Source of the DNA: Dehalococcoidia bacterium
Lineage (GTDB): Bacteria > Chloroflexota > Dehalococcoidia > GIF9 > AB-539-J10
NCBI GenBank assembly: GCA_030610855.1
Contig: JAUWQY010000005.1
Location: 1-64,000 of the forward strand
DNA length: 64,000 nt
Reading direction: 5' to 3'
This document shows positions 32,750-59,138 of the stretch, piece after piece (the first letter of the stretch is position 1; each line of letters starts with the position of its first letter). The position numbers and the translations under genes were made by a program. The notes under the pieces were generated by a model. The model was not told where the DNA came from. It searched no databases and worked only from the letters and a program-made list of their open reading frames with translations.

Positions 32750-34087
32750 ATGAACGAGTCAGGCGTTAGACTCAAGAAGAAGAGCTCCCCGTATGGGGTG
32801 AAAGTGCCTGAGCGCAAGCTTACTGCACAAAGACCGATTGAACGCGCACCATTGCCGGAAAGAGCAATCATCTCACTACATCAGAATATAGGGGCAGCGA
32901 GTCAAGCCCTCGTCAGAAGAGGAGACAGAGTGCTGACTGGTCAGAAGATAGGCGATTCAGATAAGCTCATTAGCGCCCCCATCCACGCCACGATATCCGG
33001 AGAAATCGCTGGTACCACTATGGTAATCAATCCTGCAACGGCGCGGCCGGTAGAAGCTTTAGTGGTGGCCTCTGATGGAGCCGATGAATGGGTACAATTG
33101 GAACCAGTTGAGAACCCTGAAGCGCTTTCGCCAAAAGAGATTCTCGACAGGATAAGAGAGGCCGGTTTAGTTGGATTGGGAGGAGCCGCCTTTCCCTCGC
33201 ATATTAAGCTAGCTCCACCCGGAGATGCCAGGATAGATACCATCATTCTAAACGGTTGTGAGTGTGAACCCTATGCCACCTCAGACCACAGGGTGATGCT
33301 GGAGTGCGGGGAGAAGGTGCTCTCTGGACTAAATATCATAAGGAAACTGCTCTCTCCCGAGACTACCTATATCGCTATCGAGGACAACAAGGAAGATGCC
33401 ATAGAGCACATGGAAGACTTGATAGTAGCTATGGGGTTCAAGGAGGATATCAAAATAGTTCCTTTAGAATCAAAATATCCCATGGGCGCCGAAAGGATCC
33501 TGACCAAACTGCTACTGGGCAGAGAAGTTCCTATCGCTGGACTGCCTCTGAACGTGGGTGTAGTAGTCCACAATGTGAGTACTACCAAGGCAATCCATGA
33601 AGCCGTTGTCGAGGGCAAGCCCCTTGTTGAGAGGGTCATAACGGTCACCGGTGCCGTTAACAGTCCGAAGAATCTTCTGGTGAGGTTTGGCACCCCGCTA
33701 GGAAGCCTCATCGAGTACTGTGGCGGAATTGTGGGCAAAGCGAACAAGGTTATCCTTGGCGGACCGATGATGGGCTTCGCTCAGTTTGACCTTGGTTTCC
33801 CTACAATGAAGGGAACGAATAGTGTGGTCGTCAAGGAAGATACGATAGTAACGGAGCAGTGCTGCATAAGGTGCGGGCGGTGCATAGAGATTTGTCCCAT
33901 GCATCTCATGCCTACCTTGCTGGCGAAATATGCCAAGGCTGGTAGATACGATCAGTGCAAAGCGGCTTATGTTGATAACTGCTTCGAGTGTGGGGTTTGT
34001 GCTTATGTCTGCCCGGCTAAAATACCGATAGTGCAGTATATAGAAATGGCAAAGAGAGAACTGGCTAAGAGGGCAGCCAAGAAATGA
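32750..34087 (+). CDS. rnfC: Rnf electron transport complex subunit C
   Basis: GLGGAAFPSHIKL, NGCECEPYATSDHRVMLE, CIRCGRCIEICPMHLMP and CFECGVCAYVCPAKIPIVQYI. Confidence 0.95.
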   Translation: MNESGVRLKKKSSPYGVKVPERKLTAQRPIERAPLPERAIISLHQNIGAASQALVRRGDRVLTGQKIGDSDKLISAPIHATISGEIAGTTMVINPATARPVEALVVASDGADEWVQLEPVENPEALSPKEILDRIREAGLVGLGGAAFPSHIKLAPPGDARIDTIILNGCECEPYATSDHRVMLECGEKVLSGLNIIRKLLSPETTYIAIEDNKEDAIEHMEDLIVAMGFKEDIKIVPLESKYPMGAERILTKLLLGREVPIAGLPLNVGVVVHNVSTTKAIHEAVVEGKPLVERVITVTGAVNSPKNLLVRFGTPLGSLIEYCGGIVGKANKVILGGPMMGFAQFDLGFPTMKGTNSVVVKEDTIVTEQCCIRCGRCIEICPMHLMPTLLAKYAKAGRYDQCKAAYVDNCFECGVCAYVCPAKIPIVQYIEMAKRELAKRAAKK

Positions 34088-35037
34088 CTCCTGTGAAGAA
34101 GTTCCTGATCTCACCGAGCCCGCATCTGTGGAAGGGGCCCTCGGTGAGCAAGATAATGTACCTCGTGGTGCTTGCCCTCATGTTTCCCTCTGGAGCCGCA
34201 GTGTACTTCTTCGGTTATCGTGCCCTTTCTGTACTGGGCGTGAGCGTGGGAGCAGCCCTGCTCACCGAGTACGTATGCAGGAGAATGAGAGGTCATACCT
34301 TCGTAATGGACGGGAGTGCCTTGGTCACGGGGATTCTCTTCGGCTTAATCCTGCCGCCAACTATACCTTTGTGGACGGTGGCTGTTGGCGCCATATTCGC
34401 TATCGCCATTGTCAAGGAGGCCTTTGGCGGTCTGGGACACAACATATTCAATCCTGCTTTGGGAGCCAGGGCCTTTATGTCAGTTAGCTTCTCTCTGCCG
34501 ATGACGACTTGGGTAGAGCCAACAGGCTTCGGTGTTGACGCGGTGACCTCAGCCACGCCACTGAGCGGATTGTCTGGGTGGCAGCAGTTTGACCCCGCTG
34601 CTTATCAGGCAATGTTTCTGGGTAACACCGCCGGCTCCCTGGGGGAGACCTCAGCCCTCGCCATCCTTATAGGCGGTGGTTTACTACTAGGGCTTCGCGT
34701 AATGAACTGGAGGATTCCGGTGATTTATGTCGGAGTGGTCTCCCTGCTAGCTCTTGCCTTCGGCCAAGACCCTCTCTTTCATATCCTGGCCGGCGGACTC
34801 ATGCTTGGTGCCTTCTTTATGGCAACCGACTATGTAACGTCCCCCCTTACCAACCGGGGGAAGATGATATCGGGCGTTTTTCTCGGAGCACTAACCATGT
34901 TGATAAGGCATTTTGGTGGTATGCCTGAGGGGGTCTGCTACTCCATCCTTTGCATGAACGCCATTACCCCCCTTATTGATCGATATACTAAGGAAAGGCC
35001 ATACGGGCTAGTAGAGAGGGCAAGAAGTGCCGGCTAA
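34084..35037 (+). CDS. rnfD: Rnf complex subunit D
   Basis: Hydrophobic; FNPALGARAFM, VDAVTSATPLSG flavinylation-type motif, FMATDYVTSPLTNRGKMI. Confidence 0.95.
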   Translation: MTPVKKFLISPSPHLWKGPSVSKIMYLVVLALMFPSGAAVYFFGYRALSVLGVSVGAALLTEYVCRRMRGHTFVMDGSALVTGILFGLILPPTIPLWTVAVGAIFAIAIVKEAFGGLGHNIFNPALGARAFMSVSFSLPMTTWVEPTGFGVDAVTSATPLSGLSGWQQFDPAAYQAMFLGNTAGSLGETSALAILIGGGLLLGLRVMNWRIPVIYVGVVSLLALAFGQDPLFHILAGGLMLGAFFMATDYVTSPLTNRGKMISGVFLGALTMLIRHFGGMPEGVCYSILCMNAITPLIDRYTKERPYGLVERARSAG

Positions 35038-35575
35038 AGATGTTTTTGGAAGAGCTTTCCCGGTAATCCTGCTCACGGCAGTCGTGGCTATCTGTGTTAG
35101 TTTGCTTACCTACGTAGGCAGCATTACCCTGCCCAGAATTGAAGCACTCGAAGTGCAGAAGATACAGGGTATGCTCTCCGGAATGTTTCCCGATATGAGC
35201 CGATACACTTTTGAGGATGAGATATACGCGATATACTCTGACGAGGTTAGGATTGGCTATGCTTTTGTTGCTGTAGGTAAAGGGTATGGGGGTGCTATCA
35301 ACATCCTGGTTGGGCTTGAGGACGAGGCGACAATAAAAGGTATAACCGTAATCTCTCATACCGAGACACCGGGGCTAGGCAGCAGGATAACCGAGGATCT
35401 CTTCACCGGCCAATTCGTTCGCCTGAGCGTTGATGATGCGGCATTAAGGCGCGATGGCGGGCAGATAGATGCGATCACCGGGGCAACGATAAGCTCCAGG
35501 GCAGTTGCCGACGCTGTGAGAATCACAGCCATGGAGAAGGTTAAGGTGCTGGAGGACAGCGAGGAAGGAGGGTGA
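35027..35575 (+). CDS. rnfG: Rnf complex subunit G
   Basis: SHTETPGLGSRITEDLFTGQF and IDAITGATISSRAVADAVR (S/TGAT FMN-attachment motif). Confidence 0.95.
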   Translation: MPAKDVFGRAFPVILLTAVVAICVSLLTYVGSITLPRIEALEVQKIQGMLSGMFPDMSRYTFEDEIYAIYSDEVRIGYAFVAVGKGYGGAINILVGLEDEATIKGITVISHTETPGLGSRITEDLFTGQFVRLSVDDAALRRDGGQIDAITGATISSRAVADAVRITAMEKVKVLEDSEEGG

Positions 35576-36189
35576 AGGTGGGTAAATTCGCACAGGAGTT
35601 TGCCAAGGGGTTAATCATCACCAACCCCGTTCTTGTCCTTCTGCTTGGGTTATGTCCAGCTCTGGCCGTTAGTACCTCTATTGACAATGCGCTGGGCATG
35701 ACCCTGGCCGTTCTCATTGTCCTTCTAGGATCGAATATCATAATCGCTGCCATGAGGAATTTCGTGCCGAGCATAACCAGGATTCCCATATTCATCGTCA
35801 TAATCGCCACCCTGGTTACCGTGGTGAATCTTCTGTTCCATGCCTATCTCCCGGACCTGCACGAAACGCTAGGCATATATCTCCCCTTGGTGGTGGTAAA
35901 CTGCATAGTCCTCGGCAGGGCTGAAGCCTTTGCCTCCAAGAATCCCGTAGTTCGCTCCATTGCTGATGCTCTAGGGATGACCGTCGGCTTTATGCTAGCC
36001 TTGCTCATGATATCACTCATAAGGCAGATGCTAGGGACTGGAGAGATGTCAGTATTCGGTGTCCATTTCTTCTCCTTGCCTGTCCTGAGCAGCCGCCCTG
36101 TAGCAATATTCATACTTCCGCCCGGGGGATTTCTGGTCATCGGGCTGTTGCTGGGACTGTTCAAATGGACGGGGGTGCTCAAGAGATGA
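35572..36189 (+). CDS. rnfE: Rnf complex subunit E
   Basis: EFAKGLIITNPVLVLLLGLCPALAVSTSIDNALGM; YLPLVVVNCIVLGRAEAFA. Confidence 0.95.
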   Translation: MKVGKFAQEFAKGLIITNPVLVLLLGLCPALAVSTSIDNALGMTLAVLIVLLGSNIIIAAMRNFVPSITRIPIFIVIIATLVTVVNLLFHAYLPDLHETLGIYLPLVVVNCIVLGRAEAFASKNPVVRSIADALGMTVGFMLALLMISLIRQMLGTGEMSVFGVHFFSLPVLSSRPVAIFILPPGGFLVIGLLLGLFKWTGVLKR

Positions 36190-36761
36190 ACGAACTCATT
36201 GTCATATTCCTCAGCATGGCCCTCATCAATAACTTCATCCTGGTGAGGTATTTGGGCCTTTGTCCCTTCTTAGGTGTCTCTAAGGAACTGGGGCCCGCTG
36301 TCAGTATGGGAATAGCTGTCACCTTTGTCATGATTATTGCCTCACTCGCCACCTGGCTAATCAACCACTACATCCTTATTCCTTTTGATATTCAGTATAT
36401 GTATATCATAGTATTCATATTGGTAATAGCCTCACTGGTCCAGGTTATAGAGCTATTCATAAAGAAGACGAATATTGCGCTTTACTCTGCCTTCGGCATA
36501 TACCTCCCGCTCATTACAACTAACTGCGCTGTGCTTGGTGTTACCATTATCAACATGATGGGGAGCTATACGCTCCTGGAGAGCCTGGTTGCAGCTCTCG
36601 GCGGTGGCCTCGGCTTTACCCTCGTTCTGGCTATTATGGCAGGCATACGAGAGAAACTGGAACTAGCTGATACTCCCAGGGCGATGAAGGGGGCACCTAT
36701 AGCCTTGATCACGGCAACTCTTCTCGGTCTTGCCTTCTTTGGATTTGTCGGGATCGTGTAA
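36186..36761 (+). CDS. rnfA: Rnf complex subunit A
   Basis: MNELIVIFLSMALINNFILVRYLGLCPFLGVSKE; GIYLPLITTNCAVLGV; start trimmed. Confidence 0.95.
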   Translation: MNELIVIFLSMALINNFILVRYLGLCPFLGVSKELGPAVSMGIAVTFVMIIASLATWLINHYILIPFDIQYMYIIVFILVIASLVQVIELFIKKTNIALYSAFGIYLPLITTNCAVLGVTIINMMGSYTLLESLVAALGGGLGFTLVLAIMAGIREKLELADTPRAMKGAPIALITATLLGLAFFGFVGIV

Positions 36762-36795
36762 TGTACAATACAGTATCTGGAGGGTTCTGAATACG

Positions 36796-37632
36796 ATGAC
36801 TCACATCGGTGCCCTTGTTGGCATAGGGCTAGGCTGCGGGCTGTTGATATACCTTGTCTTTGTTAAGGTTCCACAAAAGGTGAAGGGGCTGGAAAAAACA
36901 GAGGAGCTAAACGCTATTCTGCCCGGCGTAAACTGCGGTGCCTGTGGTTATCCCGGTTGTTTTGCCTATGCTCAGGCGCTGTCACAGGAGCCCGGTTTGG
37001 TGACTAAAGCACCATGCTCTATGACGCTAAACGATCCCGAGAGACTGGAGCAACTAGAAAAGGCTCTGGGCATAACCCTAGATGCGTCGGAGCTGGGCAA
37101 AAAGGCTGTCATCCACTGTAGTGGTAACTCTGAGATTATATGTGATTACTCCGGGGCTATGACGTGCAAAGGTGCCGCCCAACTCCTCAGCGGATACAAG
37201 AAGTGCCCCTATGCCTGTCTGGGTCTCGGTGACTGTGTGAATGTGTGTCCGCAGGGGGCAGTGTCTATTGACCCCCAAAAGAATGTAGCTATCGTAGATC
37301 AAGAGAAGTGTACCGGGTGCGGGCTTTGTGTCGCTGGGTGTCCTCGGAACCTCATTGAACTGGCTCCGGCAGGGACAAAGATTGCCCGCCTCTGTAACTA
37401 CCAACCATTAAGGGATATTCCGGGCAGGGAAAAGTGCGATTTCGGCTGTATCCGTTGCCGGAAGTGCATCAAGGCTTGCGAATATGAGGCGATAGTGTGG
37501 AACAAAGAGAAAGCTATACCTGAAATCGTTCAAGAGAAATGCAGACTGTGCCATAAATGTATAGAGGCGTGTGAGCATGGTAGGCTGATTGCTTTGACCA
37601 AGTCAACGGAACAGGATCTGATTCCAGCGTAG
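36796..37632 (+). CDS. rnfB: Rnf complex subunit B (ferredoxin-like)
   Basis: NCGACGYPGCFAYAQAL and several CxxCxxC(x)nC(P) 4Fe-4S motifs; start trimmed to ATG 36796. Confidence 0.95.
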   Translation: MTHIGALVGIGLGCGLLIYLVFVKVPQKVKGLEKTEELNAILPGVNCGACGYPGCFAYAQALSQEPGLVTKAPCSMTLNDPERLEQLEKALGITLDASELGKKAVIHCSGNSEIICDYSGAMTCKGAAQLLSGYKKCPYACLGLGDCVNVCPQGAVSIDPQKNVAIVDQEKCTGCGLCVAGCPRNLIELAPAGTKIARLCNYQPLRDIPGREKCDFGCIRCRKCIKACEYEAIVWNKEKAIPEIVQEKCRLCHKCIEACEHGRLIALTKSTEQDLIPA

Positions 37633-48856: not shown

Positions 48857-50107
48857 ATGCCAGTTAATCAAATGAGAGTAGCTATGCTCAGTGCCCACAG
48901 CTGCCCTGTGGGAAAACTGGGCACAAAGGACACCGGCGGTATGAGTGTTTACATCCGGGAGCTCGCCTGCGAACTGGCCAGGCGGGGGCATTTTGTGGAT
49001 GTCTACACTCGTGTTCATGACCCCAAGGACCGCCAGATTTATGAGTTCTGTCAGAATGCACGGCTCATTCACCTCGGGGCAGGCGAAGACGAGGAGATAC
49101 AGAAGCTGGCCGTGTACTCCTATCTTCCTGACTTTGCCTGCAACCTGGAAAGCTTCAGGAAGAACAACAGCCTGGAGTACGATTTGATATTCAGCCACTA
49201 CTGGCTTTCTGGGGTGGCAGGAACGTATTTGCAGCCATGGTGGCGTGTTCCCCATATCACGATGTTTCATACGTTGGGTGCGGTTAAGAATGCAGTTAAG
49301 AAAGAAGCTTATCTGTCACCGGGCGAGGACGATCCCGAACTTCGCATTGAGACGGAGAAGAGCCTGGTTCAGCAGTGCCATCACATCATCGCTCCAACGG
49401 AGAAGGAAAAGGAAGCACTCGTCGGGCACTATGGTGCGTCATCGGAGAAAATCAGCGTCGTGCCCTGCGGGGTGAATCTGGAGCAGTTCAGGGTATTGGA
49501 CAAGGCACAGGCCAGGCGGCATCTGGGTTTTGGCGATGATAAGATCGTTCTGTGTGTGGGCAGGATCGACCCCTTAAAGGGCGTAGACAAGTTGATAAGG
49601 ACTTTGCCCCATCTGCGGGATATCTCAGGATTGAAGCTGGTCGTCATCGGCGGAGGTGAAGATAGCCAGGCTGAAATAGAACAGCTACGAAGGCTGGCCC
49701 GTAACCTCGGAATGGAGCATGCAGTTGCTTTCCTGGGTTTGGTAAAGCATGAGCAGCTACCTCATTTCTACAACGCGGCTGACGTTTGTGTGGTTCCGTC
49801 CTATTACGAGAGTTTTGGTTTGGTAGCTCTGGAATCCCTGGCCTGCGGCACACCGGTAGTGGCTACTGATGTAGGTAACCATAGAATGGTCATCCGTCAG
49901 GGAGAGACGGGGTATGTGGTAAGAGACAATGCTCCCCGTCGTCTGGCCGATAAAATCGCCTTGCTTCTTGCCCGGCCCAGCTCAGATAAGAAGTCTGCCC
50001 TCTTGATTCGGGCATCGGTGAGCGAATTCGGCTGGTCCAGAATCGCTGAAGCAGTCATCAGAGATTGCCGGAGGGTAATGGCCAACTATCTGGCCCCTGT
50101 GTCCTGA
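48857..50107 (+). CDS. GT4-family glycosyltransferase (MshA-like)
   Basis: DTGGMSVYIRELACELARRGHFVDVYTR, FSHYWLSGVAGTYL, FHTLGAVKN, GVDKLIRTLPHL, PSYYESFGLVALESLACGTPVVAT. Confidence 0.92.
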   Translation: MPVNQMRVAMLSAHSCPVGKLGTKDTGGMSVYIRELACELARRGHFVDVYTRVHDPKDRQIYEFCQNARLIHLGAGEDEEIQKLAVYSYLPDFACNLESFRKNNSLEYDLIFSHYWLSGVAGTYLQPWWRVPHITMFHTLGAVKNAVKKEAYLSPGEDDPELRIETEKSLVQQCHHIIAPTEKEKEALVGHYGASSEKISVVPCGVNLEQFRVLDKAQARRHLGFGDDKIVLCVGRIDPLKGVDKLIRTLPHLRDISGLKLVVIGGGEDSQAEIEQLRRLARNLGMEHAVAFLGLVKHEQLPHFYNAADVCVVPSYYESFGLVALESLACGTPVVATDVGNHRMVIRQGETGYVVRDNAPRRLADKIALLLARPSSDKKSALLIRASVSEFGWSRIAEAVIRDCRRVMANYLAPVS

Positions 50108-50426
50108 TTTATCTCCTTCCGATACTACAAGGTCTTGTCCTGCACCTGAAATCTCTCCACGATAGGCGGTCTTTGCTCAGTTGAGCAGCCCGGTCGCTCT
50201 CGTTGCTCGGCGGGGACCTGTCACGAAACGCAACTCCGATCGTCTACAGCTCTTTGGCTGAGCATGCGACAGCATGCACCTTCTGTAATCCGCCGGTTGA
50301 TCGTCCCTTGTATTGTGGAAGGAATCGCTCGTTGCCTTTGCACCGATTCTCAATCTGAATTGTACCGGCCTCTCGAATCCTGTAGAATTACCGCCGTGTG
50401 TCACGATAGCAGGAGGCTGAGGCACA

Positions 50427-51122
50427 ATGGCTAAGCGGGCTCACGTCATCGTGGTTACACCGCATCCAGACGATGCTGAATTCGGCGTTGCCGGGACTGT
50501 GGCTCTTTGGGCAAGCGAAGGAAAGGATGTGATCTACGTGGTATGTACCAACGGCGACAAGGGCACCAGCGATCCCAATATGAAGCCAGATGAACTGGCC
50601 GGAATCAGAGAACAAGAACAGATAGCTGCCGCCGACACACTGGGGGTGAGCGAGGTCATATTCCTGCGCCATCCGGACCAGGGATTGGAAGATACACCTG
50701 AATTCAGGAAGGAGATTGTGCGCCTGATAAGGATGTACAGGCCGGAGACAGTGGTAACCGCCGATCTGGGCCGGCGTCGTATCTGGCATCGCGACCACCG
50801 AATCACCAGCCAAGTTACACTTGATGCCATCTTTCCCTACGCCAGGGATTTCCTTTCATATCCTGATTTGATGGAGGAGGGACTTCAACCTCACAAAGTC
50901 AGGGAGGTGTTACTCTGGGGTGCTGAGGAGCCTAATTATCGCACCGATATTACTAAGACCTTTGACACCAAAATCGCCGCCCTACTCTGCCATAGGAGTC
51001 AGATAAGCAGCATTCCCCAGACAGGATGGGAGCAACGGCTAAAGGAACGGCACAGAATGCTCGCTGAGGGAGAAGAGTACGAACTGGCCGAAGCCTTCTT
51101 CCGCGTAGAGATATTGTGGTGA
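50427..51122 (+). CDS. PIG-L/LmbE-family deacetylase
   Basis: TPHPDDAEFGVAGTVALWASEGKDVIYVVCTNGDKGT; WHRDHRITSQVTLDA. Confidence 0.93.
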   Translation: MAKRAHVIVVTPHPDDAEFGVAGTVALWASEGKDVIYVVCTNGDKGTSDPNMKPDELAGIREQEQIAAADTLGVSEVIFLRHPDQGLEDTPEFRKEIVRLIRMYRPETVVTADLGRRRIWHRDHRITSQVTLDAIFPYARDFLSYPDLMEEGLQPHKVREVLLWGAEEPNYRTDITKTFDTKIAALLCHRSQISSIPQTGWEQRLKERHRMLAEGEEYELAEAFFRVEILW

Positions 51123-51188
51123 TAAGCATTCTAGCCCTGTGCTCAACGGGGTGATCGGCTCTTTGTCCCGAGGCGCTCGGTTAAGCTG

Positions 51189-52046
51189 TCATGATAACGG
51201 CGGCAGGATTCTGTGCAATTCAACGAGCGCCCAGGCATTCTGCTCCAGGTCAAAGCCATCTACTGAGCTTCGTCTCTGGCCGGAGACACCGTCCACCGCC
51301 CCTCTAGCTACTATTTCGTTGATCATTTCCTTCTCCCACTCCACCGAGGGCAAGAGGTTGCGTTTGACCAGCCTGGACAGGGCGGCAACCAGTCCATACG
51401 CTCCCCAGTTGGATACACTGGCAATGATCAACCTGGCGACCGGGGTAAGGGCAGGGTTCTTGGGCAGTGTTTCTACTCTCGGTATGTGCTGAGCCAGATT
51501 ACCCATACCGACTTCATTGCCGCCGTCCCCTATACCCAGGCTGTTCTTCTCGCCTGAGAAGAGGTAGTCAATCCTGGCCGTGTGCTCGGTTATGTCCTCT
51601 CCTGCCATGTTCAGATACTTCTGGTTACGATTGAGCCCACACCTCTCTACGGAAACAAGGAGAGATGGTTTGATATCAGCTAAGATGTGTCCGGCAAACC
51701 GCCAACTGGAAGCATCGTCGGCTAAGGGGAAATCGATAACCTCATCCTTTCCCACGATGTCACTGGCGAGAAGAGGCACAGTGTGTTTATCCGTAACGTA
51801 GATGACGTCAAGGCCGAGTGCATGCAGTGCCCGGCCGATGGCCAGGGCGCCGGGGGGCCCGTCAGTTTCGGGAGCCTGGGCACAGGCGATGTAGAAACCG
51901 GTGACGATTATGGCCGGTCCCTGGCTCTGTCTCCCCCTCTCAAGAACGAAAGCAGCCGCATCGTGACAGAAATCGCCAGGAAGATAGTTCCTCAGTGCCG
52001 ATATGCCCCTGCGGTCGTGGCTCAGGATTATCTCTTCAACTGTCAT
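51189..52046 (-). CDS. DUF4392 protein (D-glutamate cyclase-like C-terminal domain family)
   Basis: AAFVLERGRQSQGPAIIVTGFYIACAQAPETDGPPGALAIGRALHALG; FSGEKNSLGIGDGGNEVGMG. Confidence 0.85.
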   Translation of the reverse strand: MTVEEIILSHDRRGISALRNYLPGDFCHDAAAFVLERGRQSQGPAIIVTGFYIACAQAPETDGPPGALAIGRALHALGLDVIYVTDKHTVPLLASDIVGKDEVIDFPLADDASSWRFAGHILADIKPSLLVSVERCGLNRNQKYLNMAGEDITEHTARIDYLFSGEKNSLGIGDGGNEVGMGNLAQHIPRVETLPKNPALTPVARLIIASVSNWGAYGLVAALSRLVKRNLLPSVEWEKEMINEIVARGAVDGVSGQRRSSVDGFDLEQNAWALVELHRILPPLS

Positions 52047-52120
52047 AACTGCTTACCCCGAACAAGTCGGAATGTCAAAACCCAAATTGCAGAAGCAATC
52101 CCAAACCATAGGTGCCAGGA

Positions 52121-53086
52121 CTACAGGTCTTTGTCATTGCGCTGAACGTACTGCTTCAGAGCGTCGATGCTTTTCTCGTATTCTCTCAGCAACCGGTAGG
52201 CTTCCTCTTCCGTAACCTGCAAGAACCTCACGCGATCTCCCGGCCGAGCCTGAGCTAGTTTGGGCAAATCAACTGTGCTCACGGTAGCTATCTTGACATA
52301 CCCGCCAGTGGTCTGCCGGTCGGCCAGGAGAATGATGGGCAGCCCGTCTCCGGGGACCTGGACTGCCCCGGACGGGATACCATCAGAGACGATGTCCGCC
52401 CCCGCTTTGTGCTCTATGGGTGGTCCTTCCAGGCGATAGCCCATGCGGTCGGCCTGAAGTGAAATCTTATACTCTGAGCCTAGGAAGGTGCGGATGCCTG
52501 TCTCAGTGAAATGGTCATCCTGAGGACCGAGGATCGCTCTCAGTTCGTTCTCAGCCTGATACTCGGGGATGTATTGCCGTGGGAGTGTCCTCGACGGGAT
52601 TTCTACTCGCGCTTGTCCCCTGCGCAGGCGGTCCCCGGAGCATAACGGCCTCCCCTCAAAACCACCCAGGCGAGACTGAAGATAGGTTGACCGGCTAGCC
52701 ATCACTTGAGGGACATCTATCCCGCCAGCCACGGCCAGATAGCTCCGGCATCCGTTCTTGGGGTGGCCAAACGAGATAGTATCGCCGGAGCAAACCCTTA
52801 CTGCCTCCCACATGGGGAGTGGGCGGTTGTTCAGGGCTGGGCTGAGGTCGGCCCCACTGACAGCCACTGCTGTGTCACCCAGAACCCGCAGGTGAGGCCC
52901 GAGTACCGTTATTTCCAGGCACGCGTCTCCTTCCTCATTGCCCAGCAGCAGATTGGCTACCATCAGCGAGTAGCTATCCATTGCTCCCGAGACAGGCACG
53001 CCATATTGCTGATAACCGTGCCGTCCCTTATCCTGGACGGTGGTCAGAAAGCCGGGTTGAATGACCTCAAATGCCTCCACTCTCAT
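52121..53086 (-). CDS. pxpC: 5-oxoprolinase subunit C (KipA/biotin-dependent carboxyltransferase family)
   Basis: EVIQPGFLTTVQDKGRHGYQQYGVPVSGAMDSYSLMVANLLLGN; DRMGYRLEGPPIEHK; DRQTTGGYVKIATV. Confidence 0.94.
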   Translation of the reverse strand: MRVEAFEVIQPGFLTTVQDKGRHGYQQYGVPVSGAMDSYSLMVANLLLGNEEGDACLEITVLGPHLRVLGDTAVAVSGADLSPALNNRPLPMWEAVRVCSGDTISFGHPKNGCRSYLAVAGGIDVPQVMASRSTYLQSRLGGFEGRPLCSGDRLRRGQARVEIPSRTLPRQYIPEYQAENELRAILGPQDDHFTETGIRTFLGSEYKISLQADRMGYRLEGPPIEHKAGADIVSDGIPSGAVQVPGDGLPIILLADRQTTGGYVKIATVSTVDLPKLAQARPGDRVRFLQVTEEEAYRLLREYEKSIDALKQYVQRNDKDL

Positions 53087-53822
53087 CCTCCTCTATAAGC
53101 GGAGTCTCTTTCGGCCGGTAGGTCCCTTGTTCCACCTCTTCCCTTATCCGGCTGAATTCCTGAGCAGTTATCGGGACAAATTCCACATAGTCACCCATCT
53201 GCAGTAGGGACGGTGGTTCCTTCTCGGGATGGAACAGCTCCACAGGAGTTCTGCCGATGAGCCGCCAGCCTCCCGGGCTCTCCACCGGGTATATTCCCGT
53301 CTGGTTTCCAGCTATTCCCACCGACCCGGCTGGTATCCTCGCTCGTGGCGTTGCTAACCTCGGGGTGGCTATACGTGGGGACAATCCCCCCAGATAGGCA
53401 AAGCCGGGAGTAAACCCCAGCACATAAATCAGGTACGCTTTTCCGGCATGGAGACGAACTACATCCTCAGGAGACAGCCCGTTATGTTCGGCCACAAACT
53501 CCAGGTCGGGCCCATATTCACCCCCGTAGACGGTGGGAACCTCCGTAACCTTTGGCGCCGGGAATTCATCGGCTTCGGTCTTATCGACCAGAAGCTCCAG
53601 GGTGGCTCTCAGCTGTTGAGGACTTACGTCGCGTGGCTCATAGCAAACAAGCAGCGACCGATAGGCAGGCACCGTCTCAACGAGCCCTGGCGGCGTGGCC
53701 TCTTGTATGGCGAGGTGCAGGCGCCTGACGCGGCGGTTCAACTCCGGGTCAATCGTGTCCCCTAACTCGATGAAGAGCGCCCTGTCTCCGCCTGGGAGAA
53801 ACCGTGGTCTTTCATAGATCAT
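53067..53822 (-). CDS. pxpB: 5-oxoprolinase subunit B (KipI family)
   Basis: RFLPGGDRALFIELGDTID; LGFTPGFAYLGGLSPRIATPRLATPRARIPAGSVGIAGNQTGIYPVESPGGWRLIGRT. Confidence 0.95.
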   Translation of the reverse strand: MIYERPRFLPGGDRALFIELGDTIDPELNRRVRRLHLAIQEATPPGLVETVPAYRSLLVCYEPRDVSPQQLRATLELLVDKTEADEFPAPKVTEVPTVYGGEYGPDLEFVAEHNGLSPEDVVRLHAGKAYLIYVLGFTPGFAYLGGLSPRIATPRLATPRARIPAGSVGIAGNQTGIYPVESPGGWRLIGRTPVELFHPEKEPPSLLQMGDYVEFVPITAQEFSRIREEVEQGTYRPKETPLIEEDESGGI

Positions 53823-53839
53823 GGCCTGGCTTCAAGATT

Positions 53840-54607
53840 CTACTCGCAGAAGGCACCCATGGGCACTATGGTCACGCCGGCTGCTTGCAGTCTCTGTCGC
53901 AGTGTTTGGGCCAGGTCTGCCGCTCCCGGAGTATCGCCGTGCAGGCAAATAGTGTCCGCCGTCATCTCGACTTCCTCGCCGTTGATGGCTGTCACCTTCC
54001 CTTCAATGACAATCTGCAGAACCCTGGCTACAACCTCATCAACATCGCTAATAACGGCCCCCGGATGATTGCGGGGGACGAGAGTACCGTCCGGGCTCAT
54101 CGACCGATCGGCAAAGGCTTCGCGGGCCACCCTTAGCCCAAGCTCACGTCCTACCTTTATCCAGAGGGAGCCCGCCATTGCCACCAGAATCAGGTTGGGG
54201 TCCACGTCTCTGACAGCCTCAGCAACCGCTCTGGCCAGTTCCTCGTTTCTGACTCCCATGTTATACAGAGCTCCATGGGGTTTGACATGCTGGAGCTTCT
54301 TTGTCCTGGTGAAGGCGTGGAGGGCGCCTATCTGATACGTAACATAATCCCCGGCCTCGTCGGGGCTTATCATCATTTCTCTCCGCCCAAAGCCCATAAG
54401 GTCGGGGAGGCCGGGATGAGCTCCGATGCCCACACCGGCTGCCTCGGCCAAACGCACCGTCCGCCTCATGTACAGGGGATCGCCGGCATGAAATCCACAG
54501 GCGATGTTAGCAGATGATATGTGCGGCATTATCTCTTCATCAGACCCCAGCGTGTAGGCCCCAAAGCCTTCTCCTATATCGCAGTTAATATCTACTTTTC
54601 TGTCCAT
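53840..54607 (-). CDS. pxpA: 5-oxoprolinase subunit A (LamB/YcsF family)
   Basis: VDINCDIGEGFGAYTLGSDEEIMPHISSANIACGFHAGDPLYMRRTVRLA..HPGLPDLMGFGRREM; start trimmed. Confidence 0.95.
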   Translation of the reverse strand: MDRKVDINCDIGEGFGAYTLGSDEEIMPHISSANIACGFHAGDPLYMRRTVRLAEAAGVGIGAHPGLPDLMGFGRREMMISPDEAGDYVTYQIGALHAFTRTKKLQHVKPHGALYNMGVRNEELARAVAEAVRDVDPNLILVAMAGSLWIKVGRELGLRVAREAFADRSMSPDGTLVPRNHPGAVISDVDEVVARVLQIVIEGKVTAINGEEVEMTADTICLHGDTPGAADLAQTLRQRLQAAGVTIVPMGAFCE

Positions 54608-54671
54608 CAGGCTCCTCCCTCGGAAGACAGGCGACGAGATTGAGTGGCATGGTTCTGCACGGGGCTGCCAG

Positions 54672-55505
54672 TTATGAAGCAGCCAGTTCTTCATCCCGAA
54701 CATCGGTAATGAACATGTGCCCGGGTGAATGAGTTATCATCAACCGCGGCCTGGATCTCAGCGCTACGGCCTGGGCGGTAACACCGCAGGCCCAGAACAC
54801 GGGAACCTCGTCCTCCTTGATTTTCACATAGTCACCATAGTCCGGATGCTTAATGCTCCTAATACCCATCTTCGCCGGATCGCCTATGTGCAGGGGAGCG
54901 CCGTGCGCCATGGGAAACCGGGACGTTATCTGAACGCATCTTACAACCTTTGATTCGTGAATGGGTCTCATACTCACAACAATGGGCCCCGAGAACATAC
55001 CCGCTGGCCTGGCCTCAATGCTGGTCACATACATGGCCACGTTCTTACCCTGCTCGATGTGCCGCAGTGGTATCCCCGCTCTTATCAGGGCTGCCTCGAA
55101 GGTAAAACTGCAACCGAGTAGAAAACACACCAAATCATCATCCCAGTAACCGGTGACATCTTTCTGCTCTGCCACCAGTTCGCCATCTCGGTAGATCCTG
55201 TATAAGGGAATGTCTACCCTGAGGTCTGCCCCTCGGGCCGTCAGAGAGGGTTCGTATCTCCCCGATTCCACCACTTCAAGAACCGGGCACGGTCCAGGAT
55301 TGCGCTGACAGAAGAGGAAGAAGTCGAAGGCCAGGTCTTCAGGGAGTACGACTAGATTTGCCTGGGCATAGCCCGGGGCCAAACCTGCCGTGGGCCGGGT
55401 TAGTTCCCCTCGCCGAATAAGCGCCCTTACTTCGTCAGAGCTTCCAGACATAAGGTCGTTCAGAGTATAGCCTCTCCTTGTCTCCCTGTCGCTTTGTTGC
55501 AGCAT
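54672..55505 (-). CDS. DUF1445 family protein (putative hydro-lyase / D-glutamate cyclase-like N-terminal domain family)
   Basis: GLAPGYAQANLVVLPEDLAFDFFLFCQRNPGPCPVLEV; DDDLVCFLLGCSFTFEAALIRAGIPLRHIEQGKNVAMYVT; THSPGHMFITDVRDEELA; start trimmed to MLQQSDRETRRGY. Confidence 0.88.
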   Translation of the reverse strand: MLQQSDRETRRGYTLNDLMSGSSDEVRALIRRGELTRPTAGLAPGYAQANLVVLPEDLAFDFFLFCQRNPGPCPVLEVVESGRYEPSLTARGADLRVDIPLYRIYRDGELVAEQKDVTGYWDDDLVCFLLGCSFTFEAALIRAGIPLRHIEQGKNVAMYVTSIEARPAGMFSGPIVVSMRPIHESKVVRCVQITSRFPMAHGAPLHIGDPAKMGIRSIKHPDYGDYVKIKEDEVPVFWACGVTAQAVALRSRPRLMITHSPGHMFITDVRDEELAAS

Positions 55506-55557
55506 TGGTATAATACTACACCATACCTCTATCAACAATAGGGCAGCCTGAGCATGT

Positions 55558-56877
55558 CTATGCCGGTAATTCTCCGATAGCACCGTCAGCCACGGCGTCA
55601 CGTATAGCCTGGACCAGGGCATCGACTGTCTTCTCGATATCATCTTTCGTGTGAGCCATTGACAGTATGAACACTCTCCCCTGGTGCGTGTGGATCCCAT
55701 GATGAAGAAGGTACAGGCCCAGTTTGTGCTTCTCGTCGCTCCCGGCCAACATCTTCTTGATGTCCCTGGTGGGCGAATTGCCGGCATCGTCCACTTCGAA
55801 GTCAGCCGGGCCGAAGTAGGTATGGATAATAGACCGACCGTAGAGACGCCAATTATAGCCCGATTCTTGCAGTGCCTTATTACCAGTCTGCTGCAAGTAA
55901 GCCCCCATTTCGTTGACCTGCTTCTGAACCGAACCGTCCTTGAGGAGCTTGCAGGCAGCAATACCAGCAGCACACACGATAGGCATCGCATTCCAGGTGC
56001 CGGAGTGAGGAATCCACCTTTCAGGAGGGGGCTTAGGGGCTAACATGGCCATGACGTCGGCCCGACCGGTTAAGACCCCGGCCGGCATTCCGCCCGCCAC
56101 GCTCTTACCGAAGGTAGTCAAGTCGGGCTTTAACCCCATGAAGCCACCCCAGCCAGCGGGCCCATCACGGAAGCCGGTGACCACCTCGTCCAGAAGCCAG
56201 ATGGTGCCATACTTCCTAGCCAGGGGGCCCACGGCCCCAATGAAATCAGGTTCCCAGGGAACCTGGCCTGCCATGTGGGCACCGCCGCCCTCGGTGAGGA
56301 CTATGGCATATTGCTTGGTGGCCAACTCCGCTTCCAGCATTCTGAGGTCATGCATGGGTATTTCCTTAAGCTCCGCGTTAACCGCGCCCGGCGCACGAGG
56401 AGTTACTAACTGATCGGCCCAGCCATGGAAGTTATCTTCGAACTTGAGGATTCTTGTTCTGTCGGTAAAGGCCCGGGCAATCCTTATCCCCATCACGTTT
56501 GCTTCCTGCCCGCACGCGAAAAACTCCACCCTGTCTGCGGTTGGTACCATGCTCTTTATCAGCTCCGCCCACTCAATTTCCAGTTCGTGGGAGGCGCTAT
56601 AAAGGGTTCCCTTGATTGCCTGGTCATGTATTGCCTTCACTATAGCCGGGTGGCCGTGGCCCAGTATCAGGGCGCCATGCCCGTTTCGAAACTCGATGTA
56701 TTCATGGCCATCTACGTCCCAAATCCTTGAGCCTTGAGCGTGAGTCATATAAGGACCGAAGGGATCCCAGATACGAGCGACGTGGGTGACCCCTTTAGCG
56801 GCGAAGTGGTTCAACGCCCTTTCGTGCAACTCTCTTGATTTCGGATGCGATTTGACGAATTCGTCGACGACAGCCAT
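55558..56877 (-). CDS. Class III PLP aminotransferase (glutamate-1-semialdehyde aminomutase-like)
   Basis: DPFGPYMTHAQGSRIWDVDGHEYIEFRNGHGALILGHGHPAIV; LLDEVVTGFRDGPAGWGGFMGLKPDLTTFGKSVAGGMPAG. Confidence 0.93.
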   Translation of the reverse strand: MAVVDEFVKSHPKSRELHERALNHFAAKGVTHVARIWDPFGPYMTHAQGSRIWDVDGHEYIEFRNGHGALILGHGHPAIVKAIHDQAIKGTLYSASHELEIEWAELIKSMVPTADRVEFFACGQEANVMGIRIARAFTDRTRILKFEDNFHGWADQLVTPRAPGAVNAELKEIPMHDLRMLEAELATKQYAIVLTEGGGAHMAGQVPWEPDFIGAVGPLARKYGTIWLLDEVVTGFRDGPAGWGGFMGLKPDLTTFGKSVAGGMPAGVLTGRADVMAMLAPKPPPERWIPHSGTWNAMPIVCAAGIAACKLLKDGSVQKQVNEMGAYLQQTGNKALQESGYNWRLYGRSIIHTYFGPADFEVDDAGNSPTRDIKKMLAGSDEKHKLGLYLLHHGIHTHQGRVFILSMAHTKDDIEKTVDALVQAIRDAVADGAIGELPA

Positions 56878-57118
56878 TTTCCCCCTTATGTCATTAGTTT
56901 AGTTAGTCACAGAGGTCTTGTCAAAAGGCGAGGGCAACCTGGAGCAAGGTCGTGTCTAGAAATCTGATGAGGAGCGAGTAGAAGTAGAGAATGCCTCCTC
57001 GTAGGCGAGGAAGTGTCCGTTGCCGGAAGGTGTCGGGACGAAGGGAGACGTCAATGAACTCATGGACACCTTGAGGAATCCGCTTCGCTCGTTGTCCGTG
57101 GGCACTTACGGATACTGA

Positions 57119-57760
57119 CTAAGTTGAAAGCCAGAGTACATCGCCACATAGGCCGGGATCATGACGCCGCGAGGTGAATATGGCAAACTCGTTCTTTTCC
57201 TTCTTTAGCACGGTGGCATCACCATGACCAGGGTACACCAGAGTATCGTCCGGCAGCACAAGAATCTTCTCAGCTGTAGATTTGACTATCTGTTCAAAAG
57301 CAGCTGGAGAGCCTGTCCTGCCCGGCCCACCGGGGAAAATGGTATCGCCTGATATCAGGTAGCGACCGACCCTGAAGCATAGACTGCCTGGCGTGTGACC
57401 CGGCGTATGAAGTATCGCAAATGTGAGGTCACCCAGCGATAGTGTATCGCCGTCACTCAACAACATCTCTGGTGGCGACTCCAGGTTTGCAGCGTCTGAT
57501 GCATGGGCGGCCAGGGGAATCTTCAGCTCAGACCGTAGTTGAGCAAGGACAGCGATGTGATCGAAGTGACTGTGGGTCAACAATATGTATCGGGGCGTGG
57601 TATTCCTTAATGTGTCTACGATGATGGGTGCCTCCGCCGGCGCATCTATCAGCGCGCTGGCTTGTGTTTTTCGACAGGTTACAATGTAGGAATTGGTTCC
57701 AAAGGGGCCCAGCTCAAGCCTCACAATCCGGATTGCAGTATCTTCGGCTACGATTGTCAT
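57119..57760 (-). CDS. Metallo-beta-lactamase-fold hydrolase (glyoxalase II-like)
   Basis: LLTHSHFDHIAVLAQL; LHTPGHTPGSLCF; YPGHGDAT. Confidence 0.94.
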   Translation of the reverse strand: MTIVAEDTAIRIVRLELGPFGTNSYIVTCRKTQASALIDAPAEAPIIVDTLRNTTPRYILLTHSHFDHIAVLAQLRSELKIPLAAHASDAANLESPPEMLLSDGDTLSLGDLTFAILHTPGHTPGSLCFRVGRYLISGDTIFPGGPGRTGSPAAFEQIVKSTAEKILVLPDDTLVYPGHGDATVLKKEKNEFAIFTSRRHDPGLCGDVLWLST

Positions 57761-58188
57761 TATCCCAGGCCACGTTCGGTTGTTATTGCCCCCAATACTC
57801 CGTTAATTAACCGGGGCGAAGAATCGCTTCCGAATTCCTTGGCTAACTCTATGGCCTCATTTATGGCTACCTTGAGCGGAGTCTTGTCAAATGGGGTTCT
57901 ATCGTGGAATAGAATCTCAAAAAGAGCCAGTCGCAGAATGCTCCTGTCGATGATGGACATGTGTTCTGCGGGAAAGGTAGTGGCGGATTTCTTGATAAGA
58001 GCATCAAGCTCAGATTTATGCTGGAGCACTCCTCTGACAAGCTCTTCGCTGAAGCTAAGCGCCTGTTGAGGCAACTTCTCCTCTGTGGCCAGATGGGCTA
58101 AGGCTTCCTCTGCCTTGTGCTTGGTACAATCAAGCTCATAAAGCGCCTGGAGAGCAGCGATTCTTGCCTTTCGCCTGATGCCGGCCAT
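57760..58188 (-). CDS. nusB: Transcription antitermination factor NusB
   Basis: [66 protein letters not shown] pattern. Confidence 0.93.
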
Positions 58189-59138
58189 TAGCTAATCGGT
58201 CCCTCTTGACATGCCAGCTGCGCTATATCCTCAACTCCTGATACATTGATGGTCTGGAGGTCTGAGTTGATGCGCCTGATCAGGCCGCTGAGCACTCTCC
58301 CGGGACCTATCTCATAGAAGATGGTTACGCCATTATGCATCATATACTCCACCGACCCTTGCCACTGGATGCAATTACGAAGTTGCTTCACCAGTTCTTC
58401 TCTTACGGAATCGATGCTTGTCAACGGTCGGGCGGTCACATTGGATATCACGGGAATGACTGGTGGCTGAAACCTGAAGCTGGACACGATGTTACTGAAT
58501 TCAGCTATGACTGGCTCCATCAAGGCCGAATGAAAAGCCCCGCTAACCTTCAGAGGAATAAGAGCACGAGCACCTCTTGCCTTCGCCAGTTTATCGGCTT
58601 CGGCCAGGGCCTGGGTGGCACCACTGAGCACGATCTGCCCGGGGCAGTTCATATTGGAGATTTCGACTTCGCTGTGGATGGTTATGTCTTTCACTGTTTC
58701 TTCATCGAGACCTATTACAGCCAGCATGCTCCCGGGGCGTTCTAGCCCGGCTTCGTACATTAGCCTGCCTCTTTCCCTGACAAGCAAAACGGCGTCGGCC
58801 AACTTGAGCACACCGGCGACAACAAGAGCGGTGTACTCTCCCAAACTGTGACCGGCAACAAAAGCGGGAGAAGGGAAATCAGCTATGGCTGTCTCTTCAA
58901 GAGCTTTAAGGCAGGCAACGCTGACGACCAGTATCGCTGGCTGCACGTTGTGCGTCTTTGTTAGTTCATCCGCCGGACCTTCGAAGCATAAACGGGACAG
59001 AGAGAAGCCCAAGGAAGCATCAGCTTCATCAAAGACTGTCCTGGCTGAAGGATAGCGGTCATATAAATCCTGGCCCATGCCGGTGTTTTGTGAGCCCTGC
59101 CCCGGGAAAACATAAGCTGCCCTTGATAACTCGGCCAT
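58188..59138 (-). CDS. fabD: Malonyl-CoA:ACP transacylase
   Basis: [49 protein letters not shown]. Confidence 0.96.

Follow-up and report, generated by a model that had tools for sequence, protein, structure and literature searches.

We analyzed a 64,000-nucleotide stretch of contig JAUWQY010000005.1 (hereafter the window), which belongs to a metagenome-assembled genome (MAG) of a Dehalococcoidia bacterium, and focused on a candidate operon for the metabolism of D-glutamate and 5-oxoproline. The original prediction, made from the sequence alone, had proposed six consecutive minus-strand genes at 51189-56877, and their place, strand and order were all confirmed. In transcription order they encode an aminotransferase, a DUF1445 protein, the three 5-oxoprolinase subunits PxpA, PxpB and PxpC, and a DUF4392 protein (Table 1). 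Profile searches placed the two genes that had been taken for the halves of D-glutamate cyclase in DUF1445 and DUF4392, and these are separate polypeptides here, as in the bacterial loci examined. The mouse cyclase, DGLUCY, combines both families and converts D-glutamate into 5-oxo-D-proline, and its loss raises D-glutamate (PMC5339696). PxpABC opens 5-oxo-L-proline with ATP (PMC13274462, PMC10448178).

Proteins of the operon and their host genome

The pxpA, pxpB and pxpC genes are contiguous and all three products score over the NCBIfam cut-offs. PxpC falls below the stricter PxpC equivalog NF045499 (262 of 500 bits), and a clostridial PxpC from locus L125 scores similarly (263). The genes are closely spaced, with gaps of ~52 bp (aminotransferase to DUF1445), ~64 bp (DUF1445 to pxpA), ~17 bp (pxpA to pxpB) and ~74 bp (pxpC to DUF4392), and pxpB and pxpC overlap by ~20 bp. 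Two starts differ from the mechanical calls or were refined: the open reading frame at 54672-55991 is too long for DUF1445, whose gene starts near 55505, and pxpA starts near 54607, where GGAG lies ahead of an ATG.

The DUF1445 protein has 3db9 and 2pif as its nearest PDB entries (E 1e-87 to 1e-89). Its AlphaFold model (predicted local distance difference test, pLDDT, 91) has the fold of these two structures; 3nek matched at a template modelling (TM) score <0.5 and there was no other confident match. The DUF4392 protein matches the structures of TON_0340 (4dwz, 5gl2-5gl4), and its model (pLDDT 97) has the same fold, with further matches to generic Rossmann proteins. Six acidic metal ligands could be aligned to TON_0340 (E60, D62, E134, D174, E178 and D263), and all six are invariant in 34 out of 34 sequences from several phyla. 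We also looked for a reaction in remote folds, but both models matched only the structures of their own families well and no reaction could be read from them.

The original prediction had described the aminotransferase as similar to glutamate-1-semialdehyde aminomutase (GSAM, HemL). This role was ruled out: the score against the hemL equivalog is far below the cut-off (242 of 527 bits), and the family search of the MAG found no hemA, which places the enzyme outside the C5 tetrapyrrole route. Its best PDB match is instead the D-phenylglycine aminotransferase 2cy8 (E 3e-66); 2cy8, 6dvs and 6g1f rank at the top and GSAMs follow at 7e-51. D-phenylglycine aminotransferases are stereo-inverting and couple a D-amino acid with 2-oxoglutarate/L-glutamate (PMC3503884).

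The family searches covered the whole host MAG (1.63 Mb, 95% complete). The original prediction had noted that no racemase was visible in the window, and this extends to the MAG, in which nothing matched the glutamate racemase (MurI) model TIGR00067. No Mur ligase was found there either, the sole protein of Mur-ligase type being FolC, as judged by eye from its sequence. Most likely, therefore, the host makes no peptidoglycan and no free D-glutamate via MurI. Peptidoglycan synthesis was rejected on the same grounds.

Table 1 Features of the operon (positions in the window) and of related loci
Feature	Position	Strand	Length (aa)	Family match or distribution
Class III pyridoxal-phosphate (PLP) aminotransferase, D-phenylglycine-aminotransferase/GSAM-like	55558..56877	-	439	PF00202 (E 1e-47)
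DUF1445 / D-Glu_cyclase family, homologue of DGLUCY N-terminal domain	54672..55505	-	277	PF07286 (E 7e-65), NF003969 (E 2e-123, over cut-off)
PxpA, 5-oxoprolinase subunit	53840..54607	-	255 (from likely start)	PF03746 (E 1e-100), NF003814 (over cut-off)
PxpB, 5-oxoprolinase subunit	53067..53822	-	251	PF02682 (E 4e-78), TIGR00370 (over cut-off)
PxpC, 5-oxoprolinase subunit	52121..53086	-	321	PF02626 (E 8e-101), TIGR00724 (over cut-off)
DUF4392 / GLUCM-like_C, homologue of DGLUCY C-terminal domain	51189..52046	-	285	PF14336 (E 7e-67)
DUF4392-MurL-MurD2 loci	L119:9977-13712, L139:3237-6849, L083:9947-13648			three phyla

Recurrence of the operon and of the DUF1445-DUF4392 pair

A comparison of neighbourhoods in related genomes had been suggested as a check, and the same six-gene order recurs in the genus. 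DUF4392 is present in 9 of 20 genus genomes and PxpA in the same nine. All nine have the order aminotransferase-DUF1445-pxpA-pxpB-pxpC-DUF4392 as far as the contigs extend (one breaks off within DUF1445 and one within the aminotransferase gene), with the aminotransferase kept as the first gene. As every operon-bearing genome keeps this order, the arrangement is not due to chance, and the operon seems to have been gained or lost as one unit. A genome of another family (locus L017) lacks the aminotransferase but carries DUF1445-pxpA-pxpB-pxpC, and its operon ends in a tandem pair of DUF4392 genes (L017:13341-15068) that both retain the metal ligands.

Beyond the genus, we examined 80 named loci from a DUF4392 scan and a sample of 400 Chloroflexota genomes, of which 39 have DUF4392 and 361 do not. 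DUF1445 lies within 1 kb of DUF4392 on the same strand in 50 of the 80 loci, nearly always <120 bp away. In the Chloroflexota sample, DUF1445 occurs in 35 of the 39 genomes with DUF4392 and in 26 of the 361 without it (p 3e-29), and the association holds at the genus level (16/19 vs 13/206, p 5e-14), although these tests are not corrected for phylogeny. The two genes are direct neighbours in 22 of the 35 Chloroflexota genomes that hold both, in two opposite orders. This pattern suggests that the two DGLUCY halves genuinely function as a unit. About 45 loci, mostly from SAR202 and other Chloroflexota, have the two as neighbours without PxpABC. The idea that the halves bracket 5-oxoprolinase thus describes the host genus and its near kin, but elsewhere most Chloroflexota loci seen have direct neighbours without pxpABC. 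MurI is rare alongside DUF4392 in the Chloroflexota sample (5/39 vs 248/361), but an exclusion between the two fails as a general rule, as most Clostridia and Negativicutes with the pxp operon possess MurI. Three large Chloroflexota genomes (G198, G213 and G478) show a paralogue expansion, with three to five DUF4392 matches each, some of them adjacent. A gene of the MR/MLE enolase family near SAR202 pairs was considered as an epimerase, but its representative is a galactonate-dehydratase-type protein and it was not used.

PxpABC joins DUF1445 and DUF4392 again in Clostridia and Negativicutes, in orders unlike that of the host. For instance, three Lachnospiraceae/Clostridiales loci (L125, L126 and L129) and L123, from a MAG labelled Thermoflexaceae, have pxpB-pxpC-DUF1445-pxpA-DUF4392, and Schwartzia (L130) has DUF4392-pxpB-pxpC-DUF1445-pxpA. 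A class IV D-amino-acid transaminase is the first gene in L123 and L126. In Spirochaetaceae (L136) the order is D-amino-acid transaminase-DUF4392-pxpA-alanine racemase, and in Rokuibacteriota (L138) a D-phenylglycine-aminotransferase-like gene lies directly 3' of DUF4392. The occurrence of three gene orders in distant lineages argues that the pathway is shared, and D-amino acids are the theme of several of the additional genes. At two further loci (L131:1238-2976 and L120:9923-11658) DUF4392 is followed by a protein of the EutA/arylmalonate-decarboxylase type (Asp/Glu racemase superfamily). In Nesterenkonia (L111:4110-12119) it is accompanied by TRAP transporter genes, a D-2-hydroxyacid dehydrogenase and a D-serine-dehydratase-like protein.

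DUF4392 is also immediately followed by MurL and a MurD2-type MurD in Omnitrophota (L119), Candidatus Paralachnospira (L139) and Rokuibacteriota (L083). The MurL proteins of L119 (E 4e-59) and L139 (E 7e-81) match the MurL model NF041275, both below its narrow cut-off, and that of L083 is homologous to these two. In the alignments, the two positions diagnostic of MurD2 (PMC8788868) are Glu and Arg in all three MurD proteins, and a fourth locus (L132) has DUF4392 next to a MurD with the same residues. None of these genomes has a glutamate racemase above the cut-off. Walls made through MurD2 and MurL are built from L-glutamate, so D-glutamate from turnover would be unusable by MurD2 and an enzyme that removes it would be sensible. 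This linkage, of which we found no earlier report in the open literature, would thus support a D-glutamate role for DUF4392.

Proposed pathway and alternatives

We interpret the six genes as a catabolic or salvage operon for D-glutamate and 5-oxoproline that would yield glutamate, with a probability of about 0.5. The DUF1445 and DUF4392 proteins would jointly lactamise D-glutamate to 5-oxoproline, doing with two proteins what DGLUCY does with one in animals, and the Mn/Mg site of DUF4392 is probably where one of the steps would be catalysed. PxpABC and ATP would then convert 5-oxo-L-proline into L-glutamate. The route originally drawn, D-glutamate to 5-oxo-D-proline to glutamate, is favored by the DGLUCY-type domains, by the joining of pxpABC in independent lineages and by the D-amino-acid neighbours. 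As drawn, however, it would merely regenerate D-glutamate: a D-lactam made by the pair and reopened unchanged by PxpABC gives back D-glutamate with a loss of ATP, so that chirality must be inverted somewhere. For a useful pathway we infer an inversion by the pair, the aminotransferase or an unlinked enzyme. Either the pair itself may release, or epimerise to, 5-oxo-L-proline, or the D-phenylglycine-aminotransferase-like enzyme may invert glutamate. The D-glutamate of peptidoglycan is an abundant and hard-to-use part of dead bacterial matter. Because the host is without glutamate racemase and Mur ligases, its D-glutamate would have an external origin, and the substrate would be D-glutamate (and pyroglutamate) out of the debris of other bacteria.

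Several points weigh against this interpretation. Neither an inversion enzyme nor an uptake system was identified, and the searched open literature holds no report of D-glutamate cyclisation by a bacterial DUF1445 or DUF4392 protein. The single DUF4392 protein purified in that literature, TON_0340, was described as a phosphatase that depends on Mn and has no known natural substrate (PMC5132392). PxpA is not associated with DUF4392 in the Chloroflexota sample (12/39 vs 130/361, p 0.6), and for this reason we regard DUF1445 and DUF4392 as the strong unit and the joining of PxpABC as a further recurrent step. Finally, DUF1445 (YcsI) is part of the B. subtilis pxp operon (PMC10448178), and our control search of B. 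subtilis matched DUF1445 and not DUF4392. Together with the 26 sampled Chloroflexota genomes that have DUF1445 without DUF4392, this means that DUF1445 may serve 5-oxoproline metabolism as such.

The B. subtilis data also favor the leading alternative, in which the operon performs only 5-oxo-L-proline salvage or metabolite repair and D-glutamate is not a substrate. PxpABC would open 5-oxo-L-proline formed by spontaneous cyclisation of glutamine or glutamate or derived from N-terminal pyroglutamyl peptides, and the DUF1445 and DUF4392 proteins would carry out an auxiliary step, such as that of a phosphatase or hydro-lyase on a related metabolite. The activity of PxpABC on 5-oxo-L-proline is established, C. 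glutamicum with pxpTABC grows on this compound (PMC13274462), and the phosphatase activity of TON_0340 fits as well. We nevertheless consider this alternative somewhat unlikely, given that the tight DUF1445-DUF4392 pair is mostly found without PxpABC, that D-amino-acid genes recur beside DUF4392, and that whole DGLUCY is active on D-glutamate in vivo and in vitro (PMC5339696).

A special form of the D-glutamate salvage interpretation is that the pair performs the inversion by itself. One protein would lactamise D-glutamate and the other epimerise 5-oxo-D-proline, or the pair would yield 5-oxo-L-proline directly, and with PxpABC this would make a one-way, ATP-driven converter of D- to L-glutamate that replaces a racemase. 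Such a system would close the stereochemical gap and account for the constant partnership of the two proteins, for the joining of PxpABC in three gene orders and for the rarity of MurI beside DUF4392 in Chloroflexota. It is unlikely in view of the mouse product, reported as the D form (PMC5339696), of the MurI in Clostridia with the full operon, and of the two protein models, which show no epimerase fold. More broadly, and tentatively, DUF1445 and DUF4392 could constitute a bacterial two-component system for lactamising D-glutamate, which becomes such a converter with PxpABC. In wall-less Chloroflexota it would stand in for glutamate racemase, in MurD2-MurL wall builders it would clear D-glutamate, and animal DGLUCY would have arisen by fusion of the bacterial pair.

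It is doubtful that the aminotransferase does the D-glutamate chemistry, by converting D-glutamate to 2-oxoglutarate or inverting it to L-glutamate, with the remaining five genes dealing separately with 5-oxoproline. Its stereo-inverting nearest solved relatives, which use L-glutamate/2-oxoglutarate, the similar enzyme after DUF4392 in L138 and the leading transaminase of the two clostridial operons would fit, but neither the related operon L017 nor the pair-only loci have this gene, and specificity cannot be read from the sequence. Lactam formation is favored and PxpABC spends ATP in the ring-opening direction, so an operon running in reverse to make D-glutamate for the cell wall is highly improbable in a host without a detected Mur ligase, even though DUF4392 tends to occur in MurI-less Chloroflexota.

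With D-glutamate salvage as the preferred interpretation, the operon points to scavenging of D-glutamate in uncultured and most likely wall-less Dehalococcoidia, and exposes the missing chirality step. Cyclase activity is on record only for the intact mammalian protein, and we found no assignment of it to one DGLUCY domain in the accessible literature. By bringing both halves together with 5-oxoprolinase, the compact operon gives direct experimental access, in bacteria, to an enzyme that in mammals still has no assigned catalytic domain.

Surroundings and comparison with known systems

The closest upstream gene on the same strand, ~240 bp away, encodes a metallo-beta-lactamase-fold protein and is followed by genes that by eye resemble nusB and fabD; these look like a separate gene set. 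The downstream neighbour is a convergent PIG-L deacetylase gene. No Rfam match to an RNA element in the leader was found within 50000-58500. The original prediction saw no transporter, and by eye no multi-transmembrane amino-acid carrier adjoins the operon; the multi-transmembrane frames of the window resemble the Rnf complex and an MgtE-like protein. An apparently complete Rnf complex (order RnfC, D, G, E, A, B, by eye) lies at 32750-37632. At 48857-51122 an MshA-like glycosyltransferase adjoins the PIG-L/BshB-like deacetylase, both below the mycothiol and bacillithiol cut-offs, and the two are possibly part of an unusual low-molecular-weight thiol route.

Parts of this arrangement are already known: DUF1445 in pxp operons, the fused DGLUCY, and the Pfam names of both families, which follow the cyclase (D-Glu_cyclase, GLUCM-like_C). 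The TON_0340 authors had remarked on the fusion in animals (PMC5132392), and D-glutamate cyclase appears, with the numbers 0 and 6, in a table of human proteins whose gut-microbe homologues are 'split' (PMC11580864). For the combined DUF1445-PxpABC-DUF4392 operon we found no report in the open literature (subscription papers were outside the scope).

DGLUCY/GLUCM (C14orf159, 9030617O03Rik) has DUF1445 first and DUF4392 second, as in the host, whose DUF4392 gene keeps the six metal ligands. The animal enzyme is one fused mitochondrial protein, whereas the host has two genes of predicted activity with three pxp genes between them. TON_0340 of Thermococcus onnurineus folds like the DUF4392 protein and has the same six acidic metal ligands, but it is a stand-alone archaeal protein, reported as a phosphatase, with no DUF1445 partner known. 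The PxpABC operons of B. subtilis (ycsFGI-kipIAR) and C. glutamicum (pxpTABC) likewise hold pxpA, pxpB and pxpC together, in B. subtilis with DUF1445 (ycsI); the host operon includes DUF4392 and a class III aminotransferase as well, but no Mn transporter (ycsG/mntG) or pxpT carrier. By analogy, the DgcN-linked route by which marine Proteobacteria and haloarchaea catabolise D-glutamate, as outlined in PMC12363236 (citing Yu et al. 2023), is a racemase-free, one-way conversion of D- to L-glutamate at an energy cost; it uses other enzymes, and none of its members was seen in the host operon. The MurD2-MurL route also handles the D/L configuration of glutamate without a racemase and is linked to DUF4392 in L083, L119 and L139, but its substrates are UDP-MurNAc peptides rather than free glutamate, and the host MAG has no Mur ligase match. 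The two-gene operons found in SAR202 and elsewhere in the Chloroflexota differ from the host operon in having neither pxpABC nor the aminotransferase and usually place the pair <120 bp apart, yet they encode the same proteins, with ~41-56% identity for DUF4392 and ~46-67% for DUF1445.

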